Assembly (NCBI GenBank): GCA_026874595.1
Contig: CM049319.1
Location: 3,748,601 to 3,812,600 of the forward strand
Source: Sipunculus nudus
Taxonomy: Eukaryota > Annelida > Sipuncula > Golfingiida > Sipunculidae
Reading direction: 5' to 3'
Length of the DNA stretch: 64,000 bases
The translations under genes and the position numbers were made by a program. Positions 34,132 to 60,566 of the stretch are shown here, piece by piece. The first letter of the stretch is position 1, and the number at the start of each line of letters is the position of its first letter. The notes under the pieces are model-generated. The model saw only the letters and a program-made list of their open reading frames with translations, did no database searches and was not told where the DNA came from.

Positions 34132-34294
34132 CTTCCATGTATTGGAACAGTCTTTCATAAATGCACACACAATCAATCCCTTTCATGATTTCTAAAAATT
34201 CAGATATGGATAAATCAAAAAAGGATCCATAGATGTCAAACAAGGTACGAGTACAGCTCCCATGGTTCATGTTCTTCGCCCGAGACCTCACCAG
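34132..34294 (-). CDS. TRAF3IP2: SEFIR adaptor coding exon 2: second half of the death domain
   Basis: Exon of 163 nt between acceptor gttcttttacag and donor GAAG|gttagt; enters in phase 0 and leaves in phase 1. It encodes LVRSRAKNMNHGSCTRTLFD, then IYGSFFDLSISEFLEIMKGI and a final helix, the helix 4-6 portion of a death domain. The exon at 60404-60566 has the same length and phases and a similar translation (LVQNRSRNFHHASPTTTLLQ), which makes the reading of both secure. Tandem leucine/isoleucine helices and the short I-S-E-F-L-E-I-M motif are usual for these interaction modules. Confidence 0.82.
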
Positions 34295-35309
34295 CTGTAA
34301 AAGAACAATGTAAGTTATACATTGTGAAATTCCTTATAGAAGTCGCAGACTGTAATAGGACTGTAATCAAACTTCTAAAATCTATTTTAATCAATTACCC
34401 AACCAAAGAGTTCCTCAGCCATACTCTTTATTGGCTATGCTTAAAGTCAGGTAATAACTAAACTTAACAATGTGTGACTTCTAATAGAAGTTACACACAA
34501 GTACCCATTTTAACAAATTCATGATTTATCCAATTTTATAAAATCTAGTGACCCATGAGGCATGAAGTTCAGCTGAGAAGTGGCTCAGAAATAAATGGCC
34601 CACTGAAATACACAATTTCAATCTTTGAGCATATGAATCAAAAGTATTAGTCTCAAAAGATATTATTCATCTTATGTAAAACATGATACCCAAAAACCAT
34701 GTAAGACCTCCAGCTGTTGAACAGAGAGCTAGCCAGGTGTGATTTTGAATGGCAGACATAAATGGCCACCACCTTAGCAAATAGATTTTCAAAACAGCTG
34801 AGCTAAAGACAGTCCTTATATTGAATCACATAGGAAATTGTTGAAAAAATATTTTCAGAATTTATCAATAAGTAAATTCATATTCATTAAATATTGTTTA
34901 CATAGTATTTTTTCTTCATCAAGATGAAATGGTAGCTTTAGCAGTATTGCTCAACCAAGCCTGCAGTGTGCTGTTATTTATACAAATTTTCAGGCTCTCA
35001 TTGTTTTTAACTTATAATTTGCCAAAAAACAGATATTGTCATTTCTCCTGATACTAAGCTCTTATTTTGCAATCACCAAACCAAAGCTGATATAAACACC
35101 AATATTTCTCCATACCTGTTAATAATGAATGCTGCAGAAGAATAATTATTAATCTTTATACTGGCACATCAGCCAATTTTATAATATATACAAGATATTT
35201 TAATATATAAACACTTATTTAATAAAATATAAAAATAATGTGTAAAAATACTATCTGAGATGAAATATTGGAACAAATATGTAAAAGCCACTGTATATTA
35301 TGTACTTAC

Positions 35310-35462
35310 ATTGATATCTGTGCCCCGTAGGTTCTTTTTCTCTGCAAGCCCTCGCCAGTCACGGTAATCGCCATCCTCAATGTCTAGTTCTCGAGCGATA
35401 AAAAGTTCAAACACTCTATCAGGGAGGTCCTTCAGTTTAATTTGACTGTATCGGCCAGCCAT
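35310..35462 (-). CDS. TRAF3IP2: SEFIR adaptor coding exon 1: first half of the death domain
   Basis: Encodes 51 residues beginning MAGRYSQIKLKDLPDRVFEL and containing DYRDWRGLAEKKNLRG, the helix 1-3 part of a death domain with its typical tryptophan. The donor is ATCAAT|gtaagt, phase 0. An in-frame ATG 21 codons upstream (35525) also exists, but the paralogue's MAARCRRVSLDSL aligns from the internal start, so 35462 is preferred. A 5' UTR part of this exon probably runs to 35865, where an acceptor (atattttgcag) is seen. Homology is to the general MyD88/IRAK-like death fold; the exact subclass cannot be set by eye. Confidence 0.78.
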
Positions 35463-35989
35463 GTTTACTGATGACACATCAACAATATCCAGTAAACTAA
35501 ATGAATTCTGAGTCACACATATCACATCAATTATCCAAGTGTTTGTATTTCTTTATTCTGTGAAAATCTGGTGCAACTCTTGGTCTCTGCCTCTTCTCTC
35601 TTTCATAATGATATGTTTCACTTCAGCAACTTTAAACTTCAGGCCACATAAAAGCAAGGTCAATGTCAAGGTCATTACCAAAGTCAAGGTCACAAAAAAT
35701 GAAACTCCCTCAATGTATCTCAGATGTCCTCAACATCAGACAGTATGTCATTTCAACAGAGCTGATAATAAGTTGATATTTCCTTATACTCTCATTTAGT
35801 GTGTATTGGTGGTATGAGTGAAGAAACACAGGCCTGATGTATAATCCAAATTGCTGGCACTGCACCTGCAAAATATGGTATTACCTTATTAACATAAACA
35901 TCCAACAATATTAAAATTAGCCTTTTATAAATTTTTCTCACACCTGAATATGTTTCTAATGATATTGTGACCCAGTCATCATGATACTC

Positions 35990-36610
35990 AGCTGTCTAAG
36001 AAGACATTCACAAAAGGAATTTTATCATCTGAATGCCAAATTTTGTAGGTGCATACAGGTATCAACTGAAGCATAGCTCAAAGGATATGGGTAACAGAGA
36101 CCTAATTTAAGGTTTCCAAGGAGATTTTTCATGGACCTCCCTGGATGTCAAGTAACAAGATTCTAGGTATATTAGTTACAATTTGTGCCCTGTAAACAGT
36201 TGACTGCATCTTTGAAGGTCTCAAAAGTAAAAATTTAAAGAAAATGCATAAAAATAAAAAAATAATGGTGGTGCCACCAGTCTGCAGGAACTGATAAAAC
36301 ATTTCATGATGAATATGCATGCAAGTAATCATGGTGGTCAATACATTAGTTCTTCAGATACAGGAGCTTTTGAATCAAATGTTAATTATTCTGGGGGGTA
36401 CTTCTGAGCCCCATAGATCGGAGGATATGGGTAACAGAGACCTAATTCCAGGTTTCCATGGAGATTTTTCATTGACCTCGGTTGATGTCAAGTAAGAAGA
36501 TTCCAGGTCCAGTGGTTACAATTTGTGCCTGTTTAATGGACAGACAGACAGACGGACAAAGACTGATCACTATAGTTCAGATGATTTCAATCAGATGAGC
36601 TAAAAACATG
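35990..36610 (-). mobile_element. two tandem partial copies of the hairpin-ended repeat
   Basis: Two stretches (about 36030-36200 and 36380-36610) share GGATATGGGTAACAGAGACC, TGGAGATTTTTCAT-like words and GATGTCAAGTAA. The second ends with an ACAGACAGACGGACAAAG tract and an ATCATCTGA hairpin at 36540-36605, matching the element at 408-620 in reverse orientation. Both lie between the 5' UTR exons of the SEFIR adaptor gene. Confidence 0.5.
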
Positions 36611-36950
36611 TCAATATTAATCCAAAAAAGGTTATCACTCATTCACCTGTAATGCGACTTAGCTTTCACATAGACCTGTAATCCTAATTTTTCTTGTTAC
36701 CATTTCTCACTCTTTACACATTTTCATTGTCCTCTTAACAGAACACTAGCTAACATTTTACCTTAAATTCAATCTACTGTTACTTTAAATATTTTAGCAA
36801 GTAGATATCAAAACTTAAAACCTATTGGACTAGACTGCTGAAGCACCCATACATACACACACAGAAAGTGAGACATGATAGTCGCCAACCCTGGTAGTGG
36901 CTATTATAGACAAGTTCTTAAGATAACTCAGTGATTTGATTTACACTCAC

Positions 36951-37000
36951 CAAGTCCTTAGGGGTTACATTCTCTCCATGCGTATGTTCCTTCACAGGAT
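36951..37000 (-). other. candidate 5' UTR exon (50 nt) of the SEFIR adaptor gene
   Basis: A 50-nt minus-strand segment lies between the acceptor ctacctttcag and the donor TTG|gtgagtgt, both strong. Two frames contain stops; the third is open but joins no upstream coding sequence, so it is most simply a noncoding exon. A possible 16-nt microexon at 37168-37183 (acceptor tttctttgaacag, donor ACAG|gtatgt) lies just upstream of it in transcription order. Confidence 0.5.
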
Positions 37001-39389
37001 CTGAAAGGTAGGACATGAGTGATATCATCTTGTATAAAATCATGATGCAATGACTTTTTCAATAAGCAAAGTGTCGTGCCTGGATCACTGATCACATGCC
37101 ATAACAACAACTCCCAAGTGTTGGATCAAACACTAACCTGAATATATATTTATACACCTGTACATACCTGTAGATGTACTGCTCTGTTCAAAGAAAGTAT
37201 ATACCAGTTTAAGTGTAATGACAAGCAGAAAAAAGTATTTCTACATATTACAAAAAGCCAAACTTTCAAACTATGTATATATCCTAAAATCCAATCAAAG
37301 ATTGTATACCAACTTCAGTGTGTCGGCCAACAGAAAAGAAGCATTTCCACACATAACAATAACCACACTTATTTTCTACCAAGGTCTATTGACAAACAAA
37401 CACTGCACTTCCACGCATTTGAATGACGCCCAGGTATTTTCATGTTTCACAGAGCACTAAAGCTGTCCTGGAGCGTCGGTTACACAACAGGAGCTATTTG
37501 TACAGCCAGTGTACTGGTGTATGTGACCAGGGTTGTTTTTAGATCTCTTTTCTGTAGATAACATCAGACAATTCTGATTCTCTGATTACTGCCTCCAGTC
37601 TGTCCTGTTACTCCATTACAGGATATCCTTAAATTTATAATATATATATATATATATATATTTACAACAGAAGTGGTTAGGTTTCTTCAAGCTTTATGTT
37701 CTTCAAGCTTTATATTGAGGTTCTTGAATTAAAATATGTAAATTTTATTTTTAAAGACTTCTACTGCATCCAACACTTTAACACTGCACTGTCTGACCCC
37801 ATCAAGTTCATAATATGTTTGCAAAATTGAATTTAAAATTCCTAATTACAAATCCCAAGTTTCATTTCTCCTTTGGATATATCAATTTCAGAATGTCACC
37901 ATGACAACAATTTAAGTAATCATATCAAGGCTGGGCAATACCTATGAACTCACGTTAGAAATGTGCTACGGTACCAATTTTGGGTGAAACAGAGCAGCAT
38001 ATTAATACCTTCTGCTATAATAACATTAGTGGAGGTGGGTTTTTACAGACCTGAATGGTTTTGATACAGAACCTCAAAAAGGTTTTTTAAGGAAATAAGG
38101 AAGAAGAAAACATAAAAAAACTTAACATCAAATACTCACCCTAAGTGAGATGCAGTCACTTTTGAGTTATTCCCATGCTTAATTAAACAAACCCAAAACA
38201 ACACCTCATTCAACATCATAAATTTATCTACATCTTAACACTATAGATGATGCCATCTACAGGGCAGTGTCCTGAACTAAACCAAGAAAATCAATGACAA
38301 GATTTCTTCCTTGATTCCGTGTTCAGCTTAACTGCCAGGATAATGCAGGATGCACCCCCTGACCTATCATGTCCTTGGCCTTTCTGAACTATTATTTCCC
38401 CTCTCAAAGTGAGCACTAGGTCAAGGGAGATGGAAGTTTAAAAGGATGTGTATTATTTACTGTTATCTAGGTACACCTGCTGGGGGAAGCATCTGTTTTT
38501 CTTAGGTTTTAAAGCAGATATAAAGCCAACTATGATACAGAATCATTATATTGCAAAATTAACTGACTGGACATGTTATAATAATTTGTTTTTTTAGAGA
38601 TTTATACTATGTAGCTGCCCATATCAGAGAGTAACAATATTGTTCAGCTATCAAACTTGTCATTATCTGTCTCAGGGCGTCAATTTATCCTCTGGGAGGC
38701 AGCGGGGGGATGACTCACACAAGCACACACACGTGTGTATACATATATATATACCTATGTATACCTTTAAAGCATCTGTATGACACATTTCATACATATA
38801 TACTTAATCACATTTCAAACATATTAAATTAAGTATAAGGTTTTAAAAATAAGGCAGTATGTTTCCAGTACAAGTTAACTATAAACAAGGTTTATATATA
38901 ATATTCAAAGTTAATTGAACCAAATTCTATAATTCTATTTATTAAGATATTTCAATATTTAAATATTATTCTCTGAATATATGGTTCCCAAAAAGATATA
39001 TACTCCCCCCCCCCCCCTCCGCCTTAACTGATGTCCCTGGTCATGGAAGTTCCTTTATCAATCATTAGAATGCCAGGACTGATTAAATTACCATCATAAT
39101 GTGTCCTTAAAAACAGTTATTAATTAAATGATGCTGAAATAATAGTCATATAACTCTCAAACAATATGTATCAAAGAATAAAAAGTATGAGTGTAGATTC
39201 TTTAAATCCACTTCTGCAGCTGGGATTTAGCAAGTTCCCTAGAAAGAGAAGAGAAATAGGTATTTCAATTCTGCCCAAAAGATTGAGAAATTCGGCGTAA
39301 GAACTATCAAACAAAAAGTAATCCCAACTTAATGCAAAGAGCCTTATCCTATTCAAAGAAGGAGCCAGAATTTAAATCAGTCTTAACAT

Positions 39390-39600
39390 CTCAAAAAAGA
39401 GTATATACTTCTGTCCAAAAAGGCTATGTACTTAGGCCCCAAAAATGTAGATATTTTGGCCCAACACAAGTGTGTACTTCAGTCCAAAAAGGTTATACAC
39501 TTCAGTCCAAAAAGGGTCTGTACTTCATTCTAAAAATATATGTACTTTGGCCCAAGAAAACCATGTATATCAGCAAACAGTAAGAACTTCAGCCTGAGAT
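39390..39600 (+). repeat. degenerate ~24-bp repeat
   Basis: Words of the type GTACTTCAGTCCAAAAAGGT recur about nine times with many changes (also as TTTGGCCCAA variants). The small plus-strand frame through it is a by-product of the repetition. Confidence 0.55.
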
Positions 39601-41110
39601 AAGTAAGAAAATCAGCCAAAGGCAAAGAGAGGGTAAGCTTTTAAGAGTAACCATTCCAGAGAATGATGACATAAACAAGGCACCAGCTGTTAAGACCTTA
39701 AATATGAAGCGTCTTTATCTAAGTTTAAAGAGTAGTCCACTATTTACAGTAAATGTTATGTATTACATATGCGGAGGCTACAAACTTGTCCATCACAAAT
39801 GTCATATAACCTCTAGAATTTCAGACTTCGAGGGGTATAATAAATATTTATATAGCTTAGGTGGAGAGAACATGGAGGAATATTTAAATTATCTTGTCAA
39901 CAACTTTGTTGTAAAAACTGCCCAGACATACAGATTCCTGATATTCCAAGGACATTACCAAGTTAATACAAACACAAACAGATACAAAAGATAAACACTT
40001 ATGACACTATTAATCAATTCTACATGAAAAATGTCAAATGAGTTGCCTTTTATTATCATCATAATAGAGATAATTAAACAATAAACAGAAGAGGTATCAT
40101 GTAAGCTTAACTACCTTTCATTCCATGAGCAGCAAATTCTTCAATAAAATCCTACTTTGGCAGCACAACCAGAGGTATCATGAAATATAATTTACTGAAT
40201 AAATTTAACACCACGGGTTGATTGGTAAGTAAAACCTTTGTAAGGTTTAAACTCAGATGTTCACAGTTTAGTGTGACATGTAATAAAACACCTCCCTCAA
40301 AGCAATAAATGCTTAAGTAGAAAACCTTGTAGAGACAGAGCAAACAAAAGCGGTACAGAGTCCACGTAAAACGAAGCCTAACTAAGTGTTTAGCCAACAA
40401 AATGTCACGGCCAATAACACCCTGAAGATTTATCAAACCCTCCGACCTATGACCTAGTTTTTTCTAACTGTCAGATTTACTGGTACATGTACTAATAAAA
40501 AAAATAGTCCCATGACTGTTAGAAGCTCGGCCCACTTCAAATGAAGAAGTCATTCATCAAGACCTCAATGTAGGTCATCCAGATTTGCTTTAATTGAACC
40601 TTGAATGAAAGGAATTCATGATGTACCTGGGACTGATCATACATTTAGTTTGGCTACATTTCCCTTACATCATACTCAAAGTACACAAGACTGGGAGGCT
40701 GTGAAACCAAAATGGAAGCCAACTATTTTATCACAGCATGAACAAATTCTTGTCTTCAATTAAAATTGATACATGCCTTCAGGAAACAGTTTTAGCATGA
40801 ACCCCTTCCTTTAAATTATTACAAAAGGTGTTTTAAATCAACATTACTGGTAGAACCCATGAAAAATAAATAATGTAAAACTTTCTTTCTAATGGTTTAT
40901 TTACAGAGGTAGATCCAGATTTTAGGAAAAGGATTGGTCCAACAAATGAGAACTAATGATAAACCTTAAAGAAATACAGGACCCTGCTCAAGGTGCATAA
41001 CAACAGAATATATAAATAGCAGTTGCATACATTTAATATAAATCACAATACTTAGTATATATTTAAAACATAATGCCAGTGTTAAGATCAATAAAATGTC
41101 ATAATACTAA

Positions 41111-41446
41111 GGCCAAAAAAAATTAAAGGTATGGTTCTCAGGCACCGCCCGCATCAATTTTAAACCCCTGCATCAAACATTTTTATTTGATTTTCAATAA
41201 AAACTTTCCAAATTTGAGCTGCTGCCGCTCCGACATTTCTTTCAAGAAGATAAAACCATACAATTTCCTTTGTTTTGTAGTGCTTTTACTTATTTAGCAA
41301 ATTAAAACTGTTATTTTCATGCTTTTCCCTTATCATTTGACATTTTTATCGAAACATACCAAAAAATTAAAAATAAAAAAAGCGCCCGCCCGCATTGATT
41401 CATGAAAAAAAGTGCCTGAGAACCATGCCTTTTTTTTATTTTGGTT
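41111..41446. mobile_element. PIF/Harbinger-like MITE, copy 1
   Basis: 336 bp with terminal inverted repeats GGCCAAAAAAAATTAAAGG and CCTTTTTTTTATTTTGGTT, both followed inward by GTTCTCAGGCA or its complement. It is flanked by TAA on both sides (41108-41110 and 41447-41449), the three-base target duplication expected for PIF/Harbinger. It has no coding sequence. A copy in the same orientation that looks nearly identical lies 2.3 kb away. Confidence 0.7.
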
Positions 41447-41469
41447 TAAATACTAAAACATTGCATATA

Positions 41470-42240
41470 ATCTACCATTTACATTAAAATATTATCATAG
41501 GCTTGCCTAAAAGAGTGAGTCTTCGGTGCACAATTAAATATGTCAGCAGAATCTGATTTCTTTATGTAATCCGGCAAACTGTTCCAGAGCACAGGAGCAC
41601 AACAACTGAATGCTCCATCTCCATATGGAGATAATTACTCTTAGGTTCACAAAGATGCATGTACTTGATCTCAATGCACGAGGTGTAAAATGTAACTAGA
41701 GCAATTCTGTGACATAAAGAGGTGCTTTCTCTTTGAGAGCCTTATATGTAAGCAGCAATATTTTAAATCTAATAAGAAATTCTACATGTAGCCAGTGCAA
41801 CTCGAACAAGACGGGTGATATATGATTACGTTTTGGATACCTGGATACAATGCGAGCCGTCTGATTTTGAATTATTTGCAGTCTTAGCATATGAGATCTG
41901 AATACTCCATATATAAGGGAATTACAAATATCTAACCTCGACAAAATCAAACCATGTGCTTACTGTGCACCAGTTGACTTAGAGAGATACTTGCCGATCC
42001 GTCCAAGGTTGTACACATTGAAATCTTACATATTAAACTGATTTGTGCCTTTTATTTCATCTGATCATCAACTCCTAGATTTCGCACTTTCCAGGTTGGT
42101 TTTATGGCACAGGTACCAATAGTAATGCAGGGATTTACGACTTTCTGTAACTGCTTAACTGAACCCATAATAATCGTCTCAGTTTTGTCACTGTTGCGTT
42201 TAAGCTTGTTTTGTATCATCTAAGGTTGATTATGGTTCAC
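41470..42240 (-). pseudogene. decayed LINE reverse transcriptase 3' region
   Basis: Minus-strand translation gives fragments typical of the end of a non-LTR retrotransposon polymerase: KTETIIMGSVKQ-like text and KVRNLGV near 42060-42190, then SRLDICNSLIYGV, LQIIQNQTARIVSRYPKRNH and SPVLFELHWLHV (41700-41950), then APVLWNSLPDYI near 41570. Frames shift between blocks and stops intervene, so it is inactive. The order (VRNLGV, LDxCNSLLYG, LQxxQNxAAR, HWLPV, LWNSLP) is that of CR1/L2/jockey-like LINEs. Confidence 0.7.
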
Positions 42241-42702
42241 ACATACAGAGGTCATACATACAGAGTTTGAATGACTCTTACACAGAGATCAGGTTATTGT
42301 AACTTTTTGGTAAACTCTGAATGCCTGAATGTGCCTGCTAGAACTGATTATATGATGACAGTGACATCACTGAGCTACAGTGAAAGTAACTTGAAGGTAC
42401 TGAATGATACACATAACCTGCATATTGCTATAAAATCACTGTACCAGTAATTTATATGAAGTTTGAGAGACAAGTTAACATGTCATGCTAACAATGAAAA
42501 AAAAAAAATAAACAAAAAGATGTGTTTATCTAGGAAAGTGTGGCATCAGTGATACCTAAATTTCTCCAAACTTTTGCAAGAACCCCTTTTAGATTCATAA
42601 TACTTGCAAAATACAAACTGGACATACTGACAAGAAAACGCATGAATATATAGCTATTTATCATCCTGATGACCCTGTTTTAACTTTGTTGCCTTTTACA
42701 CA

Positions 42703-42960
42703 GTATTATTATTACTATTATTATTATTATTATTATTACTATTATTATTATTACTATTATTATTATTATTACTATTATTATTATTACTATTATTACTATT
42801 ATTACTATTATTACTATTACTACTATTATTACTACTACTATTATTATTACGAATACTCCTATTATTACTACTACTATTATTATTACTACTATTATTATTA
42901 TTATTATTACTATTATTATTATTATTACTAATATTATTATTATTATTATTAATATTATTA
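42703..42960. repeat. ATT/ACT trinucleotide microsatellite
   Basis: About 86 units of ATT with interspersed ACT. It gives all-tyrosine or all-isoleucine/valine open frames on the two strands, which are not genes. Confidence 0.95.
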
Positions 42961-43470
42961 TTTTCTTAGTTGTGCCACATATCAGTTGCTTGATCCCAAA
43001 TTCCATATTGGCAATAAATATCTCATCTTATCCTTTGTAATTTATAAACTAGGTTTGAACCACAGGTACAAAGGAAGAGGTTATCAAAATAAGATGGTCC
43101 TCATGGTTATGACCAAGAAATATGCATATAACATTTTATGCTAACAGCTCCTGCCATTGCTGGAGTTATTTGATACTAGATTTAACATCATGTGTGCAAA
43201 CACCTTAAAATTGTAAAATTTTGTGATTGGTAAAATTTGGATTTGCATGGAGAAGCCATTTCAGAAAATACAATTTCAACTCACGGAGAGCTAGCTACCA
43301 CAGGTAGTGCCATCAGGTGAAAATCATATAGCAATGAAATGATTAAACACGTCTAAAGATTAGGTAATGACTGGACAAGTGTTCATGTAATTAAAGGTAA
43401 AAATTTTGCCCCAATATATGAAAATGTGTGAAATCCGAAAATTTCAAAATCAGCAAAATTTTTAAGTCCA

Positions 43471-43693
43471 CAGGGCTCGACATTAACAGTTCCAGAAAAT
43501 AGTGGAAGGCAATTTCAAGTCTCCTCCTACTTGCCCAACTGGTCAAGTGGGTCAAACATACACCTTTACCCAAGTAAAGGCTTGAAAAAGGATCTTTGAG
43601 TTCTTGAATACAATCAATAATATTTGTAGGGCAAGCAAAAATTATGAAGGGCAAGTAAAAGATAGGTGTTTCAAAAGTTAATGTTGAGCCCTG
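43471..43693. mobile_element. hAT-like MITE, copy 1
   Basis: 223 bp beginning CAGGGCTCGACATTAACAG and ending GTTAATGTTGAGCCCTG. It is flanked on both sides by GTCCA (43466-43470 and 43694-43698). The terminal sequence is a common hAT-type end in animal genomes, though hAT duplications are normally 8 bp and only 5 match here. It is non-coding. Confidence 0.65.
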
Positions 43694-43734
43694 GTCCAGT
43701 GGAAACCTCATGCAGTTTGCCAATAATTCTATGA

Positions 43735-44067
43735 GGCCAAAAAAAAAATTAAAGGTGTGGTTCTCAGGCACCACCCGCATCAATTTTAAACCCCCGCATC
43801 AAAACTTTTTATTTTGATTTTCGATAAAAACTTTCCAATTTTGAGCTGCTGCCCCTCCGACATTTCTTTCAAGAAGATAAAACCATACAATTTCCTTTGT
43901 TTTGTAGTGCTTATTTAGCAAAATAAAACTGTTATTTTCATGCTTTTCCCTTATCATTTGACATTTTTATCGAAACATACCAAAAAATTTAAAATAAAAA
44001 AAGCGCCCGCCCGCATTGATTTCTGAAAAAAAAGTGCCTGAGAACCATACCTTTTTTTATTTTGGCC
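43735..44067. mobile_element. PIF/Harbinger-like MITE, copy 2
   Basis: 333 bp, same termini (GGCC...GGCC) and nearly the same interior as the copy at 41111. Flanking trinucleotides are TGA and TTA, consistent with a mutated TTA target duplication. Small deletions separate the copies (for example near 43910). Confidence 0.7.
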
Positions 44068-45040
44068 TTATATAGTATTCATTAAATTCTCCAGCCTTAA
44101 GAAATCCTTGCATATGATGTCAAGGCTCTAGTGTTCTTAAATACTGAATTATCTGAAGAAAAGTGGAAAATCCATTTTTGTATGCAGAAAGTCATTAAAC
44201 TAAGTTGGCACCACCTTCAGGTTTTCATCACATGCTAATCATGTGATCAATTTGGTAATGATTGGTGAACTGGTTCATGAGATACAAAGGTAAAAGAATG
44301 GGGAGAAACAAACAGATGGACATACAGACCTGGGCCATTTTAGGTCAGTCTTCCATCCTAACAGCAGGAGACTAAAAATGATTGAAAAGCTTTAATCAGG
44401 CATGCAAGTATGTCAGTGTTTTAATATCTAAAAGAAGTGCATAATAGTGATTTTTTTTATTAACTGTGTGTATCCAACCATGAGAAGCCATGTATATCAC
44501 TTACATTGTTTCCGGTACTACAGCGTCATGTCTGTGATGTATACAATATCAGATATCCAGTGCTTTAGAAAGCTACATGGGATAAAAAACTCCTGATTCA
44601 CAGGAATATAATACACAAGGACCCACTGATGCATTGTAATTTACATACAGTACACACACAGATGTGTGGATACACCTAGTTTACCTTGTGTGCTCAGTTT
44701 TATGTACAATCACTGGTGCAGCTGAACTGTAACTTTAGTTGTCAGGAATGTAATGAAAACTTAATTACTCTCTATAGAACACATATACACATCCTGATGT
44801 GGCATTCTCATGTTACTGACTACCACAATTTTTTTAAGCCAAGTCATAATTACAATTAGTTCCTCATTTTTTTATTAGATATGGACTTACTGTATTGTGG
44901 AATTTACCTATATTTAAAATATATGGATTGATGTGTCCTCAATGGTAAGCATGATGAGTACAAGAGTGGATCAAAACACACCACAGATATTATTAACCTG
45001 CCTGCTGTTCTCATGATGTAAGCCTTATCAGGAGGTATAT

Positions 45041-45488
45041 CAGGCCTCAACATTAACAGTTATAACCACTGGCCCAGAGCAAGTAAAAGTTACAGATAAC
45101 GGTGGTAGGGCAACCAAAAATTGTCTCCTACTTCCCGACCTGTTCATAAACTTTGACCTAAAGGGACTGAATTTTAATTAGTCTGCAGTTAGCCATTATC
45201 TTTCCTGGCAAAATGAAATCATATTGATAATAGCTTTTAATCCTATACTACCTTTACATTTATCTGTAAAAATACCAAATTAAGAAATATAATTGACAAA
45301 CAAATATTTTAACATGTTATTATTTTTGTCAAATATGCAATAAAACATGCAACACAATCATGTGAACACTTTTTGTTCCTGACTGTGACCACAGTTTTAT
45401 GTAGGGCAATTAAAAATTCATGTGGAGCAAGATTAAATATTACTTGCCTCACTGGATAACTGCAGACAAATGTTAATGTCATGCCCTG
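45041..45488. mobile_element. hAT-like MITE, copy 2 (diverged)
   Basis: Begins CAGGCCTCAACATTAACAG and ends AATGTTAATGTCATGCCCTG, the same termini as the element at 43471 with changes. The interior shares TTGTCTCCTACTTCCCGACC-type and GGGCAA-AAAAATT words but is about twice as long. Confidence 0.55.
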
Positions 45489-46741
45489 TTAAATCATATC
45501 ATATTCCCCCCAACCAGATTTCATGACCAGTGGTTGTTCTTTATTAAAGTTCTTGAATACAGGTTTATTTCCAGATTTACTGCTTTAGAGGGAATCAAGG
45601 ACATGGTCAGAAAGGTCTAGGTGCGGTTTCTAATACATCTGCAGCTAAAAAATGGAGAATATACAGTATGTGAATATAAAGAATGTGAATATATAAAGTT
45701 TGTGAATAAACAGTATGTATATGTGCAAACAGACGACTGATGCTGTACACCTTTCAGGAGCCTAAGCACTCCCTAACTTAACCCAGCCTTTCTTTGTCTT
45801 AATTTTTATCTCTCTACTTGATGTTTTTAAAAAGCTCCTCAGGTTAGGTATGGATGGTAATTTGTGCATGGACAGACAGGTGTAAACTAACCTAGCTCCA
45901 TCCAACCTGGAACCAATGTTGCATAATATCAGAATATAAAAAGAAACATGGCCACACCTAGGCCTACCTAAACTATAAGAATCACAGGTGATGTTGTTAT
46001 ATTACATATGTAATTATGGTTATTACATATCCACAAAAACACATGACACTGTATACATCTCCTCTAGGTATTGATGTTATTTATATTCATAACCTTGGTC
46101 ATATTTGGGTGGGTTGACTCAACACACCTTATGCTGAATTATGGATACACCATGTGACAACATTTACTGCACGACTGAGAATGCATCCAAAACAGGTGCC
46201 AGAGCTTGTCCAAAAACTGGCCGGGGGGGGGGGGGGGGGGCACATGTGTACCTTTGGTGTCAACTTAGAAAACTTTTTTAAGTTTGAGCTTAAAATGGAT
46301 TAAAAGTGAAGCATTTTCACTTAAATTTATTGTATACTTGAATAAAGTGCAAAACAGTTACAAATCAACATGATTTAATGACATTACCTCAGACCTTGGT
46401 AATGACACTAACCAAGGTCAAAAGAAGGAAAGTAGGCACCCCCCTAAGGATGGACAGACCCCCCCCCCCCCTTGTTTTTCAGAACCTTTATGAGAAACAG
46501 ACCAGGTTGCAACAACAGACCAGGCTGATGTGCCATTCCAGTATAATAGCCTGCTTCACGGTCCCCAAGTTTGCCCTCGGTCTGTGTCCCAGTATAACTT
46601 GACAAAATATGACGTTTATAAGTCGACTTATTACACGATTAGGTCAACCGTTAACTAGGGTGGTTTTGGAGGGGAAGTTTAGGCAATGCAACGGCAGGAG
46701 GATCCTTATATTGGACAAACTAATCAAAATACGCCTACCTT

Positions 46742-46819
46742 TACAAGTCCCGCTAGACCCAGTTGTGGCTCTGTTAGATGTTTAACAGAGCCACAACTGG
46801 GTCTACAAGTCCCGCTAGA
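46742..46819. repeat. perfect 22-bp hairpin flanked by 16-bp direct repeats
   Basis: Left arm 46755-46776 and right arm 46783-46804 are exact reverse complements with a GATGTT loop. The words TACAAGTCCCGCTAGA at 46742-46757 and 46804-46819 are identical direct repeats bordering it. It is in intron 1 of the SEFIR gene, about 350 bp from the first exon. Confidence 0.9.
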
Positions 46820-47490: not shown

Positions 47491-47493
<3 letters not shown>

Positions 47494-48353: not shown

Positions 48354-48380
48354 CACACACACACACACACATATATATAT

Positions 48381-48596: not shown

Positions 48597-49199
48597 GAAC
48601 CCCCCCCCCCCCCCCGAAATAATGACAACCTCTCTGATTCTCTAAACAACCCCTCCAACCCCCCAACCCCCCTTTATGCCCCCCTTGTCATAGGACCTGC
48701 CGTTGATTTACAATAGTGTTTTAATTAATAGCTGGTCGAGACTTAGGTCCCAAAACAAAGTCCCTTTCTCAGAATATTATTATTTCTGTCATCCCACCAC
48801 ATATTATGAAACACTTTAATTATATTTAAATATAAGTTAATTTGTATTAATTATAATGTCCATTAATTTTAAACATTAAAAAACACGAGATAAAGTTTGT
48901 GCCAATTCCATAAGGCATTAGTTGACACATAAGGCACTAGTTGACACATAAGGCACTAGTTGACGCATACCCAATCTAAATTTCCTTAATATGAGACGAA
49001 TGATTGAAATATTATTGAGGAAAATATTCAGAAACTATAAACTGGTGGACAGAATTATCTCGAAATTTAAAAGTAATTGTCTTTTATCAACCTAAAAAGT
49101 GAGGCGGAGGGGAAGACACTTTGCTCCGTCCCCCCCCCCCCCCCCCATACCCCCTAAAAAATGTATTACCTGCTCATTGGAAGCCCTTACAATTTGGCA

Positions 49200-49975
49200 A
49201 GAAATAATCCCCTTCCACTACATCTTGAAGGATCTGACGTTGGACCTAGCAAATCAGTGCGGAATCTTTGGGTCATCTTAGAAGACTCAACACTCAATTA
49301 AGACAATCATATAACATCGATTTGTAAAACTGCAAACTTCCACTTGCGGAATATTGGAAAGATAAGAAAGTATCTGACGCAGGAAGCAGCAGAGCATGCA
49401 GTTCATGCCCTAATCACATCAAGGCCGGACTACTGCAAATCCATTTTATATGGTTAGTGCAGTTAAATAGGCTACAACGAATTCAGAACAATGCGGCACG
49501 TCTCGTTACAAAGACAAAAAGACGTGAACACATTACTCCAGTATTACATTTACTACATTGGTTGCCAATAAAACAGAGGATCTTATATGAAATTTTGATT
49601 TTCACCGACTGTGCCATTAACTAGATCGCTCCTGAATACATATCGGAATTGATATCTATTCATCAGCCTAGTCGTACTCTAAGATCAAGTTCCAGTATTG
49701 TACTAGTGCAGCCTAAGTCACGAATCTTTTCATATGGTGTTAGAGCATTTGCATGTGCCGCACCATTAAATTGGAATAAGTTACCAGCTAGCATCAGAAA
49801 TGCTTAATCCCTCAAATGCTCCAAATCAAAGTTGAAAACATATCTGTTTGCATGTGCTTACTTGTAATGATTTTAAATATCTAGGATTTTATTTTAAATT
49901 ATATCATATCGTGTGCTATTTTATGTAATGCGCCTTGAGCGGTTTTATTAATGGATATGTTGCGCAATTTAAATA
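49200..49975 (+). pseudogene. decayed LINE reverse transcriptase C-terminus and 3' end
   Basis: Plus-strand fragments read VRNLWVILEDSTLN, ICKTANFHLRNIGKIRKYL, HALITSRPDYCKSILYG, LQRIQNNAARLVTKTKRREH, PVLHLLHWLPIKQR, APEYISELI and APLNWNKLPASIRNA. This is the terminal polymerase region of a CR1/L2-like non-LTR retrotransposon. It is broken by stops (for example TAG at 49623) and a frameshift near 49455. A GCGCCTTGAGCGG-type 3' tail ends at about 49975. It is on the opposite strand to, and a different family member from, the LINE at 41470-42240. Confidence 0.78.
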
Positions 49976-50506
49976 AATATATGCTTATGTTTATACTTTT
50001 AAGTGTTGGCGACGTCTCCCTGTCCCCTGAAACAAGGCGCATGGTTCAAAAACGCTTTCAATCAGTGTGTAATTATTGCAGTTTAAGATTTGAAAGTTGA
50101 TCGAGTATTAACGTCAGTTTAACTTCAGTTTTTGTTATACCTCGGAATTCTTCATGCCCGGTTATACAACCACAGTTGAACTGAAGGCAGGAAATAAACA
50201 CTGATGAGCTCATGCAATAATGTGAACTTATAATACTAAAATACACATTTAACTGAGAGAATCTCTAGTAAAATTTCTCCCCCCCCCTACCTCTTTCCCT
50301 GTCTGTTTCTCTGTCTGTCTTTCTCTCTCGCTATCTCTCTCTTTCTGTCTCTCTCTCTCTGTCTCTCTCTCTTCGGAAATGGTGATAATTCACAGGCGGT
50401 CTTATTATAGACAGGTCAATTATAACCAATGTGAAAGCTTCTAGTTGTAGTCTTAACAGACAGGTGGTCATATTAGACAGGTATAATTTCAGAAAGGTTC
50501 CACAGT

Positions 50507-50509
<3 letters not shown>

Positions 50510-50573
<64 letters not shown>
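50510..50573. repeat. TA microsatellite
   Basis: About 30 TA units, preceded at 50280-50375 by a C- and CT-rich tract with many TCTC and TGTC words. Confidence 0.9.
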
Positions 50574-50577
<4 letters not shown>

Positions 50578-52461
50578 TGACCAATTTCTCTTCAATTGGA
50601 CCGGAACGGTTAATTGATTTAAAACATGAAAGGAGTAAAATTGATTTCCTGCATCATGAATACTGCGCTTCAATCACCCGCACTTTTTTTTCACCTATAC
50701 TAGTGTCATCCAGAGCCGTCGCAAGTACCATAGAGTTACAATCAGACAACCATTATATTAACTCCATGCCTTTCACAGATTTCTTCCGTTTAAGCGTACT
50801 TTATCAGGCTGTCCTCAGTTTATAAAAAGAGAAAATAGCAGGCCTGTGACGCCCCAATCTCCACCAGAGGTCACTACCGCTACGCCAATATTACAATGTA
50901 ACTCTGGTTGTCGCCAGCTTTTTCAAGCATCGGACTGGTATAAATTCGCAGGGGCTGGTAGAGGATTAAAGATTGGGGGGAGGGGGGGGGGGGCGTCCCT
51001 ACATGAAGTCCCTACATGAAGCGACAGAGGCAAGTAGGGACGGTCACGGGTTAGCAGCAATTCGTCTCCGCTATTAAGAGTCTTTATCTGTTTGACATAT
51101 TTTTTCATTTTGTAAAAGGTGGGAGGTACCTAGATCCGTCCCTGAAGGCGTACGTGTAACCTTTTCATAATGTCCACTTACTGACGATTTCCACGTGTAT
51201 TCCTGACATGATTATTTTACGCCAGTTTTCTTATGACACGATCAGGGATTCATCCTTAATATTTCTTTCACAAAATATTTCAGTAATATAATCAGCAACA
51301 GCTAAAAAAGAAAACCGACTTTTCAAAAGAGAGGAGAACGCCTTGATATTGTTTTGTTTCAATAACTCTTGAATACGTAAACCCTTTTCCTTTATCATTT
51401 TGTCAGAATGCAGCAGTGCGTAATTTTCTAGGATTTTCATGACAAAACCACAATATCCTCCTGCGTCTCTAACTCAAAGAATCTTTTTCACAGGTCAGCC
51501 TGCCTGTTGCACTTGTTACGAGCGCCGTTTTGAGACGGTCCCCTGATTTTCTGGGAAAATTGAGGCAGCTCTCTTCAAGGTTATCAAACTGAGCAGTCGC
51601 GAAGCACTCGGCTTGGTTCATGTCACACAGTTATGTGTGAATGATATTCACTATTATCGACGAACTGTAACGTTACTCGGTATAAAAAATTCAAAACTCT
51701 GCGCTTTAATCGGTGTCGGTAGTTGCCAGGTGCTAAAAATTTACGAAGAACTAAGTCACCCATTAAACGCCCCGGGCACTTAGAATTTATTTAACACAGT
51801 TTGGTGGATAGACACGACTCCAGGTATTATCTCCCTATCCAAACATTTGACATACATTTGTATTGAAATATAAGTCATTCACCACTGTTTCTTTTAGCTA
51901 GACTAGTATGGAGACCATTTTGGTTTTGTAAAAAATCATGCATGCATAAATGTGGGACATAGACTGGTATCAAATATCACACAAAGCGAAATACCTTCCA
52001 AGGTGTCTTATGGGTGTATATAATGCAATATGGTAATGATTAATAAATATATTTATTGATGCAAGGTCTATCCTGAAGGCGGTTGAAAGAGTGTCTAAAC
52101 TGTTCCCGGATCACCCTGAATTATGGCAACAACAGTTCATTATTTAAGACTTCCTTTCGGTGTCAGACTAAATTATAGCCTACCATCCTTATAATTATTA
52201 TGTCCCATACCTCTGGACCTCACTATACAACTATACTCACAACTAAAGGCATATTGTTGCAATAAAACTAATGTTTGGACATATAGTCACACAGAGGCAA
52301 CTGGCTGATCCAATAATTAAAATCTTATCCTGCAAAAATTTCAAATTAATTTCGACGTATTTACACACTCCACTTATACTTTTTTTGTTCCCAAGAAGTG
52401 TAGCATAAAGCATAAATATGTACCCGTATATTTCATAGACAGTAATTTCGTATTACAAGTA

Positions 52462-53267
52462 CAGTAGAACGCCTGTATTACGGTCACCATCGGGACTTGA
52501 TGAAAGTGGCCTTAATACAGGAGTGGCCGTTATACAGGACTTGACCAGTAAAGGGGGGTTAAAGTGTAACACGAAACCAAGTTCAACTCTTTATTACTAT
52601 AAAAAAAATAAACGTATATACAGAGCATAATTAGTATAATAACTGTTATCAATAAAAAAATAAATAAAATATTTACAATCACGTCATAGTAATTAGGACA
52701 GAGTGTGCGCAACATTTTATACATGTAACAATGTTTGTTTTGCATTCATTATTATTAATTTATGTGTAAATTGTGCGATGTTTGCCGCACTTTTTTTCGT
52801 TTGATGTACGTGTTCTCAAGGACATTAAAGAAAGTTTAAAGATCCACAGTTTGCCTAACGTTTTACTGATGACATAATCATCGGGACCCGCTGGTTGTCA
52901 TTTGTTAATTAAATGATAAACACCTTGTCAAACAACTCAGTCACGGTAGAGTGGTTACCTTTATCTGGGCACTCATTAATAGACAGGAATATGTGAGAGC
53001 GGACACTTGTGTTATGATATTGAGGTCAGAAGTGGCCGCTCGATTTGTTGAGCCCATGTCACGGAGTCACTGCCCCTGACCGTAATTGAGGCGTTTCTTG
53101 GCCTGCGGGACCGAGATACCTGGCCGTAATACGGAATAGAGAAGTGACCGTTATTGACAACAAAATGATTATGAAATATAACGGTCGAAAATTCGGGACC
53201 GGAAAATCTGACCGTAATAGACGTATTGACCGTTATTGAGGCGTGGCCGATAGCAGGCGTTCTACTG
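52462..53267. mobile_element. 806-bp pogo/Tigger-like non-autonomous element
   Basis: Termini CAGTAGAACGCCTGTATTAC and, inverted at the right, GGCGTTCTACTG, inserted between TA dinucleotides (52460-52461 and 53268-53269) as for Tc1/mariner/pogo elements. Subterminal segments carry repeated GACCGTAAT / ATTACGGTC words in both orientations, so the ends could fold back. No transposase frame remains; the longest frame inside is AT-rich and unconvincing. Confidence 0.75.
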
Positions 53268-54090
53268 TATAATAAAAACCATGTGGACTTGCCACCGTAG
53301 TTTCATGAACATGAATACAGCAAAGTATTTGATCTGATAAAGAGTGCGCATTGTTTGTAAACTCACATAAAGCAAACATTTATGCCCGCGACTCATTAAA
53401 TACCGGTTCATTAAAAAAAAATGAAATGCTTTGTGCAAACTGTTACTTAGGACAAAAATGACAGGGGGAGTGTTTATACTGACACAACGCCGTGCTTATG
53501 TTGGAGATGTTGTCAAGTGGCTGACAAATTCACCAGTATCATAAAACGGGGTTATAATTTTGGGGCCCTTTGTATACCCACGTATGCACCTGTAAGATGA
53601 AATGGAGTGAATACTCTGCTTGAAAATGTTCTTAAAATTTGCCGAGCGCCATTCAAGAGCCTTTTGTAAAATTGTTATAGGTCACAAGACTAGATATCAA
53701 ATGTGTCTTTGATTACTGACAACTGGATAGACCAATTAGAATACATTTTTTTACTGAAATCGAGTAATTAAGAAGAAGTAAGTAAATATTCTAAATTTGA
53801 TTTAAGATATTCGAAGTGTTGATTTTCAGGGTGAAGAGGTCTGGTCCCAGGGGCGTCTTAACGCATGGATCCAGTGGAGACTTCTATTGGGGCCATAAGG
53901 GTATATAGGGGGGCCCATGCACGCAAATATACTTGGTGTTTGAAACGGGTAAGAATATCCAGCGCATTATAAAATAATTTCTTTACGGGGCAAAACGTCT
54001 ATCATACGTTAGAATGGTATAAAATAAGTTATTTATTTATATTTGTTCATTAAAGTCCCATATCTGCCCACTGTCCAACAAGCTGCTCAG

Positions 54091-54123
<33 letters not shown>

Positions 54124-54785
54124 ATATTTAGCAATAAATGTTCTAGCCCAGTTCCCGTGCATTCTAACTCCGCTATGCTCCCCTCTGACGGAGCCATGAA
54201 GAAGACTCATATTTCAAACTAGAGACATTCCAATCAACGATGCAATTGTGATATCTCGGCTAGAAAGTGTAGAATTTAATAAAAAAAGACCTCGATTAGG
54301 GCTATCTACTGCATGAGTGCAACCACCTCTGGCACCTGGCTTTTTAGTTTTAAGCATGCTACATTGCTTGTACAGAATAAAAGATATAGTTGAAGAAAAC
54401 TTAGTACATTGTATTTCCTTATTTGGTTATTAGGTGCTCAGGGTGCTCTAGTGTATGATGGTATAGCCAACAATAAAGGAGAACGTTCCTTTACGAGATT
54501 TAAGTTGATTAAGAATTAGCCTCGAGGTACAATGGAAAAGAAACATGCAGAGTTCAAAATGAATATCCTTAAATGTGGAGACCATTAAAATTCAGATAGT
54601 CATAAAACAACTTTCTTAAAAGAGTTTACTAAAGTGTAGTTGAAGCTAAAGGCTTTTTAAAAAGTAAACACATGTATTCTTAACTTGAATCTATTTGAAC
54701 CTATAGCATTGTTTTCAACTACAATTCTTACACGTTTTAGTATAAGTCCCAAGGCTGTGTCAATGGTGCATTAACCTTCTTGCAG

Positions 54786-54975
54786 AAGCGGATCCGGGGG
54801 GGGGGGGGTCCTGGGGGTCCGGACCCCTCCTTTTTCATCAGAAACGTTTTTTAAGGGCTTCAGACAAAATTTTGCGGCCTGCCCCCCCCCCCCCCCTTTC
54901 CATACCTGGGGACCTTTTTTAGGGTTTTCATTAGTCCTCCTGGTTTCCCCCCCCCTTTTTCCTAAACCCCCTTTT
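54786..54975. mobile_element. G/C-run MITE-like repeat, copy 1
   Basis: Begins AAGCGGATCCGGGGG and shares with 60930-61141 a series of words: GGGGTCC, GACCCCTCC, TTTTTTAAGGG(C/T)TTC, TTTTGC(A/G)GCCT and GGGACC. It contains long G and C homopolymers at 54796-54808 and 54882-54896. No coding potential. Confidence 0.5.
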
Positions 54976-56724
54976 CCCCTATTCTTGTGATAATTAGCAT
55001 AATCAGTTCAAAGGGGTGGACCATCAGGGCTGCCGTTAGGTCAAATCTTTCCTGTGCACTACAAGATTTTGCTCAAGATTTCATTACAGATAAAAATTGA
55101 GCACAGGGATTTATGCTAACAGAGAGAGAGTTTGGGTTTCAATAGAAATGTGTTTGATTTAAAAGAAATAATTATAAAAATATTTTGTTCAACCTCAATG
55201 TCTGAACAATTGTGCAAACAAGTAGAACATAATCTAAAGAACTTTTTAAAAGTGATATGACTGTGGATACTTTAACTCTCTATGAACAGGGCGACGACTT
55301 ATAATCTTAATGTTCAGAAAGAACATTTGAATACCAGAATGTCCCGTGTGAAGATTTGAAGACCAAATGATCGCTATGAAACGTGGTCCGAATGTCCAAA
55401 TGAGAAACCTTGTATATTGATGTTCAAAGTGTCAGTTGTACAATTGTCCAAAATGTCCATTTATTACTCTGAATAATTTAAATTGGCGGCTCATGTGGCT
55501 AGATGTTAAATTAATATTCCAATATTCATAACCGCCTGTTTGTGCGTCAGTAATAAAGTGGTCTGAGAGTTCTTCGCCTGATCCAATAATGACTCAGCGA
55601 CCACTCTGCGAAAATATAAATATTTCATGAACGAACAAGTCTGAAGAAGGTTGCAGGTTAATAATTAACAAAGACGAGGGTTTTGGGTACACCTGGTACA
55701 ATACTAGATAAACCTGATTGCATGGCCAGTTGTATAGGTACAATACTAGATAAACCTGATGGCATGGCCAGGTGTATAGGCCCTATATTTTTATTAAGAC
55801 TATTCTTCACGTGGATTCTCTGCTGACTAATTGATTGGATCAACTTTGCTGAAGTTCGATTGTTTTTATAAGTGTGATCTAAATTTGTTATTTATTATAT
55901 GTGTTGACCCATTTATACACCTACACCTATTGTCAGCCAGGTATACCGTGTATTCACTACCCTTTGAACAACACTATGTACTTTGCTATAGGTAAGCGCG
56001 TGTATCCCTGTGACTGTAAAGTGAACACATACCCACGTCTGCGTGTCTTGCATTATCAGTGCACTATAAACCAACAATCTGGGTGAACAACTCGATGAAG
56101 ATGGCGTCCTCTTGCACGGGGACCTGAATTCTACAGGTATTGTATCTTGACTGTGATGTGTATGTAACTCCTCAATCCTGACATGGTTTATTTTTTTTTT
56201 GGTCTTTTAGTATCCTGGACCTTGCTGTATTATCTATATATATAGAACCTCTCATCCGTAACGTTTAAATAACACCGATGTTTTGGTGGATGGTTATGAA
56301 GACGGCTAAGCATGGGACATGATATATTTACAGTGTACACATGGCGTCACAGAATCTAGGGTGTACTTCACCTGGTGCCGTCGAATGTATTAATTAAATT
56401 TTGAATATTTCTGATATAATGCCATTTCTCGAGTTTTGCTCGTGTGCCTGGTCAGGTCTCAAACAACAAAACAGTTCATGATTAGAAAACTAAACTCATT
56501 TTAATTATCTTTTCTTACCCCGGGGCACATATTCCTGCAAATAATCCTGATATTGGATTACAGTTTAGGGTATCTAGTATACAAACCAACAAAAACAAAC
56601 AAATAAAACACAATTTACAGTATGGAGCGTCTGGTAAATTCTATCTAAGTCCCACAGAGCCACCTTTTATAGATATTGTGGTGATATGTCCTTAATAATT
56701 TGGGATATCTCAAGTAATTCTTAC

Positions 56725-57175
56725 CTGGTAGTCGAGTCCAACATTTTGCGGACTTGGACTCGAACATGAAGGACTCAGGGGCTGTATAGTCCAGGCCACA
56801 TGAGTTCAAGTCCGATTCAAGGCCACTTGAGTTCAAGTCTGAGTCCAGGCCACTTTAGTTCGAGTTCGATACAAATCTTCCTTTATATTAAAAGATATTG
56901 AAACAGGAAACCTTAGATTACCCTAACTGTATTTTTATATTAATTTATATATATATATATATATAGCCTTTCTTCTAATATTCTGTTATAAGTTGGCGCA
57001 TGTATACAAGTCTTCATTTATTTGAAAGAGCTTTTCTTTTTCTGCTGGACTAGAGATTAACATGGCCTGATTTCTCGAGTCCTTACTTTTAGTCCAAATA
57101 TAATTCCGAGTCAAGGACCCTCGAGTTCAAGTCCGAGCCCCGAAAAAAGTGGACTCGACTCCGGTCTCGAGTCCT
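56725..57175. repeat. fold-back repeat built of ACTCGA/TCGAGT words
   Basis: The words GAGTTCAAGTCC, GGACTCGA and CGAGTCC recur many times in both orientations at 56725-56875 and 57060-57175, around a central AT-rich spacer with a TA microsatellite (56944-56964). The right edge CTCGAGTCCTACATCAC is complementary to the left GTAGTCGAGTCC. It has the look of a MITE with extended sub-terminal repeats. Confidence 0.55.
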
Positions 57176-59292
57176 ACATCACTATTATATACACTACCTT
57201 ATCCAGGAATGATCGGGCTGCCACTTTTACTAAGCCACCCAATACTGGCTAACAAACAGGGTGAATGTGTGTTATAAATCAGCCAGCTTCGCTGACAGAG
57301 GTAACAACCTTGTTCTGTATAAATTCATTACGCTGTTTTATCTTCCAGCGCCTGGTCATTTGTCCTTACGGAAATGGAAATTACTTAAATGATAAGAAAA
57401 GTATAGACGATACTATTTTCCTTTAAAAAGCATTTGCGTCACATTTATAAAAAGATTTTACTCAGCTGCATGATGATAGGTACAAGTATTACCTGAGAAC
57501 TGTCTAATTAATTGCTAATGCAAACACAACAAAAATGTACATGGTTGGACGAGGATAGTTATCAGTACTTTAAATTAAAAATTAACTTGCCATGTCAAAG
57601 CTACATTTGGGGCCACTCAGATTATTCCATTCAAATCCGATTCCGTTTCCAATTCAATAATTTTGCGAAAATACAAAGTTGTTGAAAATATATTCATTCA
57701 AATTAAATTTTAATCATTTTATTCAATTTAAATTCAGATACACTTCGCAGTATTTGGCAGTATAATGCAGTATTATGATAAAAAAAAGGTTGCTCTGCAA
57801 AGTGCATTCAACAGCATTTCTGATGCCTTCTGGAGAAAGAGATCAACTCTAGTCAAATATATATAGATATAGAGCATGCCTTTTTTTAATATGATCTGAT
57901 GGCAGTATACGTAGGAAAATGTGAGAGTTGGAATATTTATCCATCAGCAGATTCACATTGCGGTTCAATTAATTTTTATTTCATTCAGTTAAATTTCAAT
58001 ACATTCAAATTTTCTTTAAATTTGAACTCAGTTCTAATTCAATGATTATTCGATGTCAGTGTGAGTTTGTGTGTGTGTGTGTCATTAATACTTTCACCTG
58101 ATTTTACTGTAACAAATAGAAAGCAACAAAGAAATCTTTTTCAGGGTTCTACTTATATCCGAATTTGTAAGCTCTATAAGTTTCATTAGTTAAACGTTTT
58201 GTCAATCCACGAAATCCATCGCTTCGATAAAATAACATCCGTGGCAAAATTCGGCGGGGATAAGTCAGAGCAGACGATTTGTGCAGCAGACGTGCATTCT
58301 GTCACACGTAGCGAGTCAGGCCGACGTTTATCAGCGTTTAAATCTACTGTGTTCTCCAGGGTTTACGTTTTGTGCTGACAAGAACGAGAGCTTCAAACCA
58401 GGAAGTTAAACCTGCGTTTCTCCTGCTACTTTGATCACCTTGCGGTCTAATTGTTTTCTGTCACCTGCTGAAACCATGGCATGAAGCTTTTGTTAAAGTT
58501 AATACCAGCGAGTGTTATTATAACCTATGTGTGTGAATTCAGTGCAGCTGCAAGGAATACAACGTTACATCTGTGTGTTTCATAAACCTTGCTCTTGGCG
58601 TTGCTAGGTAACAAATTGCTGAATAGGTTTATTTCGCACTGGTTTGTGAAAGTGAGCCCAGGTCACGTGCTTAAAACTGACCTCCAATGGATAGAATAGC
58701 GAGGATATTATATCTAAACCTGTGAGAAAATGCATATACTCTCTGTATAACTTGGCTGTTATTGATATAATAATTAAAAGCCAACTGGAAGGAATGGTAC
58801 CAGGGATTTTCTTGTCAACCTAAACAAAAAACATCAAAAGTTCATCATAATGGTCTTACAATTGCGGATCTAATTTCTGAAAAAGGTGTCATCGGTTTTA
58901 ACCTTAATTTAAGGCTTAAAGTGTCCGTGATATTTAATATCAACAGCATCGTAGCGGACATATATATTGAAAGAAAAGGGTCTCATTGAAAGATGTGATA
59001 ACAATATTAACAGCCTGTGATACGTTGTGCCCACAACAACAACAGCAGATCATCTGAATGATCTTACCAGGGAACTGTGCCAGCCAGTATTGACCACTCT
59101 GTTTGGGTAACTACGGTCAAAGGTACACCACAGGACGGCAAGCATGCCACACGAGGCCGCAGCGTACCGAAACATATCATGTATAGTTTACCTTCGACGT
59201 TAACATACTTTGGAAGACGAGCGATTTATAATTGTTAATTCCTTCTTTTTCATTTTAAGGGACTGGCACCAGTGATGTGAGTGACAGATAGC

Positions 59293-59466
59293 ATGGCCGC
59301 CAGATGTCGCCGCGTGTCCTTGGACAGCCTCCGGTTGCGCGACCTGTTTGAGGATTTGTCTCTGGGTAGACACATTATAAATGAACTTGATAACCTCGAC
59401 GACCTTCAGTGGCACGACTGGAGAGGCCTGATACACAGGTGTGGGTTGCCTGGCAACGCTGTCGAG
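59293..59466 (+). CDS. second death-domain gene, coding exon 1
   Basis: 58 codons from ATG 59293 to donor GTCGAG|gtgatt, phase 0. An acceptor (ctttttcattttaag, ends 59259) sits 33 nt before the ATG, so an upstream noncoding exon is expected. The protein starts MAARCRRVSLDSLRLRDLFE and contains LQWHDWRGLIHRCGLPGN, a death-domain first half. It aligns with the SEFIR adaptor exon 1: both start MA-x-R and share the DWRGL core, with four extra residues here. Whether a SEFIR domain follows beyond the window is unknown. It could equally be a stand-alone death-domain adaptor. Confidence 0.78.
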
Positions 59467-60403
59467 GTGATTTATCTTTCCTGTTTCCTGTTCAATCTCA
59501 AGAATATTAGAAATGGGGTTGTGCTGTTTTATATAAGGTTATTAATTATTCATATAATTGTAAAATAAATGTATCTACTGATATGAATTAATTATAAAAT
59601 TCGTGTAAAGTAATTATTTACATAATATTTATTAACTAAAATAAAGTACTTTTTAATGTTTCCTTTTCCCCTTTTATTATGCGGATGAAATTTAGATGGT
59701 TTTATGTATAATAATATGTAAATAAAAATTATTACACATTATTTACATAGCACTCTATGCACCAAAGAGTGTTCGAAAGTGCTTTACTATGTACATTTCT
59801 CATATGATAATAAGCATAAAACCCGATACAGGTGACTGTCAAAATACACATTACACAGTGACTAAATCCTATTCAGTATAACCTGAAAAACATTACAAAT
59901 ACTAAAAAACCTGGACTAGACAAGAGAGAATAATAAAAGAAGAAATTCAGATGTCAAACAGAAAACGTTAAAAACATATAAATTCATTTGTGTACAACTA
60001 TAAATCAATGCAGGGAATATGTATGTTCAAAGCAGAGCTTACAAATAGGTTTGATCATTTTTTTTTAAACTAAAAAGTGCTTCTGCTTCAGGAATGCTGC
60101 TAGGAAGCTTATTCCTAAGAAGTGAATATTATTTAATCGTATCATAGTGATAGTCATCTTTATTTTGTTGCAAAGGACATTGGCATCTCGCGACAGTACA
60201 CCCAAACATTAGGTGTGTTAACAAAACCGATGTTCAGTTTAAAGGTACTGTTCCATTTTGTGTTTTTGAGATCACTTAAGAGGTGCCATTAAATATTTCA
60301 AGATTCTACACATGGCAGTAGATAAAAACAAGCTTTATTAAGTTCAGTGTATGTAAAGCATTTTCCCCCTCTTTTTTTAAAAATGAACCTTATTACTTTT
60401 CAG

Positions 60404-60566
60404 CTCGTCCAAAACAGGAGCAGGAATTTCCATCATGCGAGTCCCACCACCACCCTCCTTCAGCTTTATCCGCGCGTCAACGACATCTCTGTCAGACGGT
60501 TCCTGCGGTATCTGGAGGAAATGCATTGCAACGTGCTTGTGAAAAAAATTGAATCAACATTATGCA
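60404..60566 (+). CDS. second death-domain gene, coding exon 2
   Basis: 163 nt between acceptor tattacttttcag and donor GCA|gtaagt, phases 0 to 1. It encodes LVQNRSRNFHHASPTTTLLQ, then LYPRVNDISVRRFLRYLEEM and a last helix HCNVLVKKIESTLC. Length, phases and helix pattern equal those of the exon at 34132-34294 (LVRSRAKNMNHGS, ISEFLEIMKGI), so the death domain is complete at residue 112. The GTCT/CT microsatellite begins just inside the following intron. Confidence 0.82.

Follow-up and report, generated by a model that had tools for sequence, protein, structure and literature searches.

Two related death-domain genes in head-to-head order in Sipunculus nudus, one with a predicted SEFIR domain

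Results

Two death-domain genes at the locus

The stretch of Sipunculus nudus DNA analysed here, called the window, comprises 64,000 nucleotides of contig CM049319.1 (GenBank assembly GCA_026874595.1, positions 3,748,601 to 3,812,600 of the forward strand) and carries a divergent pair of genes, one on each strand, whose first two exons are predicted to encode a death domain. As judged from their sequences, the two death domains are specifically related to each other and have a common intron and exon layout, and the minus-strand gene is, by its predicted domains, an invertebrate-type adaptor of IL-17 signalling that combines a death domain with a SEFIR domain. The predicted coding exons are as follows:

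Minus gene exon 1, 35310..35462, minus strand: start codon and N-terminal half of the death domain, 51 codons, 153 nt, donor GTAAGT, phase 0
Minus gene exon 2, 34132..34294, minus strand: C-terminal half of the death domain, 163 nt, leaves in phase 1
Minus gene exon 3 (putative), 32285..33175, minus strand: Ser/Pro-rich linker exon of 891 nt, phase 1 in and out, proposed from open frame, splice sites and phases
Minus gene exon 4 (putative), 31268..31443, minus strand: N-terminal half of the SEFIR domain, enters in phase 1, leaves in phase 0
Minus gene exon 5 (putative), 19445..19804, minus strand: C-terminal half of the SEFIR domain and stop codon
Plus gene exon 1, 59293..59466, plus strand: start codon and N-terminal half of the death domain, 58 codons, 174 nt, phase 0
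Plus gene exon 2, 60404..60566, plus strand: C-terminal half of the death domain, 163 nt, leaves in phase 1, donor GTAAGT

A preliminary description of this DNA had given the same four death-domain exons, and these are bounded by GT donors and AG acceptors. It had also noted the features that the two genes have in common, all of which are found: both proteins begin with MA-x-R (MAGR in the minus gene, MAAR in the plus gene), both carry DWRGL, a phase-0 intron splits the domain at the same alignment point, 17 residues from the D of this motif, and both second exons have 163 nt and are left in phase 1. The plus exons 1 and 2 together pass the Pfam gathering cut-off for the death domain PF00531 (26.6 versus 22.6 bits, E 6.8e-06); 112 codons are open in register and every intron end is GT-AG, the donor of exon 1 (GTGATT) being without the usual G at position +5.

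Aligned with each other, a check which the preliminary description had proposed, the two proteins show specific kinship, with a score of 145 between the death domains; in 2,000 shuffles the observed score is never reached, be it that of the full domain or of one exon, and BLASTP gives 59.3 bits over 109 columns. The other family members compared are human only: the plus domain scores 32 with MyD88, 29 with IRAK4 and 26 with MALT1, values reached by 165, 279 and 913 of 2,000 shuffles, respectively, and the minus domain matches MyD88 weakly (score 40, reached by 26 of 2,000). Among the domains compared, which are the minus domain and those of human MyD88, IRAK4 and MALT1, the plus death domain is closest to that of the minus gene.

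SEFIR domain of the minus gene

Joined according to their splice phases, the five coding exons of the minus gene give a predicted protein of 580 residues, in which Pfam recognises a SEFIR domain at residues 409-530 (35.6 bits, cut-off 23), bearing out the adaptor previously proposed for this strand. The two SEFIR exons joined by an X score 31.7 bits, the frame of the last exon alone 22.0 bits, and the frame of exon 4 alone has no SEFIR match in Pfam; an intron of 11.5 kb separates the two exons. For the linker of exon 3, no match to a Pfam family reaches its cut-off. Domain order alone makes the minus gene a putative member of the Act1/CIKS family.

Repeats adjoin these exons. A 51-bp unit, present six times (92% matches) at 31004-31302 on the minus strand, duplicates the end of exon 4 plus its splice donor; each unit holds CTGCAG, followed by the exon's final codons (which read KVKDSYMK in some units and are frame-shifted in others) and by GTTAGT. 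These successive, near-identical donors could give exon 4 alternative ends. The long intron contains a 39-bp minisatellite of about 84 copies (22495-25801) with long minus-strand open stretches (LSALLIHYYIDHW...), adjoined by a 180-bp array at 20524-21516.

Age and orientation of the pair

The genes are head to head with their start codons 23,830 bp apart (interval 35463..59292), not about 12 kb apart as originally stated; of the earlier interpretation, the kinship of the death domains, the common layout and the SEFIR adaptor on the minus strand stand, and the distance does not; the inverted duplication, the heterodimer and the roles offered for the plus gene (second SEFIR adaptor or stripped-down regulator) are proposals. 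At the DNA level, 62 of the 163 bases of exon 2 are identical between the two genes, and the similarity of their exons, introns and upstream sequence does not exceed that of shuffled sequence. In the 71 codons that align without gaps, the two genes agree 26 times at codon position 1, 41 times at position 2 and 21 times at position 3 (position 2 versus 3, Fisher p 0.0012). Third positions near chance, together with intact frames and splice sites, point to long-term constraint on both genes. None of the 25 inverted repeats listed, of 485, joins the two loci; DNA homology that might mark a breakpoint would have decayed at this age, so that the head-to-head order would be the sole trace of an inverted duplication. 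The same order also fits a duplication followed by a later inversion.

An ATG lies about 20 bases upstream of the start codon, within TGATGTG, in both genes (59275-59292 and 35463-35482); it meets TGA at once in the plus gene (ATGTGA) and opens a four-codon frame in the minus gene. A 5' leader common to both genes was considered and rejected, the 40-base leaders being no closer than shuffles, 10% of which reach their score.

Sequence downstream of plus exon 2

The window leaves 3,434 bases after plus exon 2 (60567-64000), and the 3' part of the plus gene lies outside it. Within 60567-64000, no Pfam family is found at E ≤10 in the three plus frames, tblastn with the whole minus protein gives no match, and no SEFIR, linker, kinase, TIR, Ig/paracaspase or other domain is recognised. 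Equal spacing would put the equivalents of exons 3 and 4 at 956 and 2,688 nt after plus exon 2. A scan for third exons, with entry in phase 1, at least 25 codons and 70% pyrimidines before the AG, yields two candidates on the plus side (30 and 43 codons) and four in the minus gene, where exons 3 (307 codons) and 4 (63 codons) of the gene model are recovered. When 50% pyrimidines suffice, there are 23 candidates on the plus side versus 30 in the minus gene, the longest plus candidate having at most 61 codons. It is therefore unlikely that the plus gene has counterparts of exons 3 and 4 at the spacing of the minus gene. A longer intron may hide later exons, the minus gene itself having one of 11.5 kb.

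Discussion

Relation to known adaptors and proposed function

Adaptors that combine a death domain with a SEFIR domain are already known. According to passages of PMC7190641, ACT1 outside amniotes has this architecture, which its authors compare with the death domain-TIR order of MyD88; the C. elegans Act1 homologue ACTL-1 forms complexes with PIK-1/IRAK and MALT-1 below IL-17 receptors, death domains are found in Act1, IRAK and MALT1 alike, and an Act1 bearing a death domain is proposed as the ancestral route of IL-17 receptor signalling. CIKS is traced in bivalves in a part of PMC8353272, and echinoderms are seemingly without Act1 in a part of PMC5457136. The minus gene resembles these death-domain forms of Act1/CIKS in its predicted N-terminal death domain and C-terminal SEFIR domain; the plus gene resembles them in the death domain, and a SEFIR domain is not seen within the window. 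Like MyD88, the minus gene has a predicted death domain followed by a TIR-like docking domain, which is SEFIR instead of TIR. The Trichoplax (placozoan) MyD88-like protein, described with SEFIR and death domains in a passage of PMC6321704, has the same two domains, a likeness drawn from the description and not from compared sequences. The plus gene shares an N-terminal death domain with IRAK/Pelle and MALT1, but within the window it has no kinase or paracaspase, and its domain has no clear match to human MyD88, IRAK4 or MALT1.

We tentatively favour, with somewhat less than even confidence, the reading in which the minus gene encodes an Act1/CIKS-type IL-17 receptor adaptor in its death-domain form and the plus gene, still protein-coding, is an anciently diverged paralogue of the death-domain end of the minus gene and most likely a second such adaptor, with linker and SEFIR exons beyond position 64,000. 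The minus SEFIR domain would bind the SEFIR tail of an IL-17 receptor, and recruitment of further death-domain proteins (IRAK/Pelle kinase, MALT1) would fall to the death domain, so that the protein might link the receptor to a death-domain kinase, by analogy with ACTL-1 of C. elegans. A second adaptor could serve a different receptor or compete with the first for one kinase, and the plus protein would enter, or compete in, the same death-domain assembly. We infer expression, partners and pathway, as well as all of the plus gene past exon 2.

Several observations weigh against the paralogous-adaptor reading. The exons of both genes are predictions from sequence alone. The minus death domain lies under the Pfam Death cut-off (16.1 versus 22.6 bits, and 12.6 within the full protein), an unrelated transposase model reaching 15.7 bits in the same scan. 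No SEFIR, linker or other domain occurs in the 3,434 bases 3' of plus exon 2, and the third-exon scan, which recovers exons 3 and 4 of the minus gene, yields nothing comparable for the plus gene.

Alternative readings of the plus gene

The plus gene might instead encode another death-domain protein of the pathway, such as an IRAK/Pelle kinase, MyD88 or MALT1, the common intron being an old trait that death-domain genes of the phylum share and not a sign that Act1 was duplicated. This is rather unlikely: Act1, IRAK and MALT1 each have a death domain (in the passages of PMC7190641 cited above), the 3' part of the plus gene lies past the end of the window, and the family members compared are all human, but scores of 32, 29 and 26 with those members stand against 145 with the minus domain. 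Literature searches on intron positions in death-domain genes and on bivalve death-domain gene structure provided no control on the frequency of this intron. Unlikely, too, is a short death-domain-only protein that would bind the adaptor or its kinase and dampen or tune the signal, with retention of intron 2 as one route. Such retention would stop the minus protein at 106 residues, right behind the death domain and within the donor GGTTAG, and would carry the plus frame to 142 residues, ending in a TCTG microsatellite (60574-60648); these lengths, and the failure to find a third exon in the 3,434 bases, agree with it, but plus exon 2 is followed by a standard donor, GTAAGT, whose position and phase match those in the minus gene, and the plus read-through tail is mostly microsatellite. 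Only speculatively would the pair consist of a full death domain-SEFIR adaptor of the IL-17 receptor and a death-domain-only paralogue tuning the same assembly, that is, an activator and a regulator born of one duplication and still linked.

That the plus copy is a relic or pseudogene appears improbable. The absence of a recognised domain downstream within the window and the unusual exon 1 donor would suit it, but the 112 codons open in register at saturated divergence, the GT-AG introns and the Pfam score above cut-off speak against decay. A chance likeness of two unrelated coding stretches is very improbable: in tblastn the exon 1 pair reaches no more than E 0.003-0.03 and the exon 2 pair stays unlisted up to E 10, but the BLASTP alignment and the failure of every shuffle to reach the score of the whole domain or of either exon refute chance as far as shuffles can.

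If, as in the preferred reading, the plus gene proves to be no more than another SEFIR adaptor, the pair represents routine family expansion. A linked, anciently duplicated second death domain is a concrete candidate partner or regulator to seek in animals with many IL-17 genes, and the common intron is a simple marker for tracing the duplication. Neither a linked death-domain paralogue with a conserved intron nor the structure of an Act1 gene was found in the literature searched, which misses most subscription journals, and no priority is claimed.

Searches outside the window and remaining features

Protein Data Bank sequence searches with either domain, or with their alignment, give chance matches only. 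In bacterial and archaeal genome contigs, none of 11 pattern matches to the minus protein is a relative, and viral contigs give no relative among 70. A Thiorhodospira stretch, the one of 184 that passed for the plus domain, was rejected as chance, having the searched peptide DLQWHDWR and little else in common. These collections hold no animal genomes, so their misses mean little.

Between the two genes, a low-power six-frame scan of the 23,830-bp interval finds no Pfam domain at cut-off, the best match being a zinc-finger model (14.2 versus 39.2 bits); the scan covered plus exon 1 (59293-59466) without reporting it, and absence of genes between the pair is not claimed. Rfam has no match and ARAGORN no tRNA gene in the window. 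The segments 41699-41959 (minus strand) and 49328-49804 (plus strand) resemble what we take to be worn ends of non-LTR retrotransposons, for which Pfam found no match in the two pieces. At about 6843-7016 on the plus strand, an open stretch has a sub-threshold RhoGAP match (17.4 versus 24.5 bits) and resembles the final part of a RhoGAP domain; it may be an exon of a different gene.
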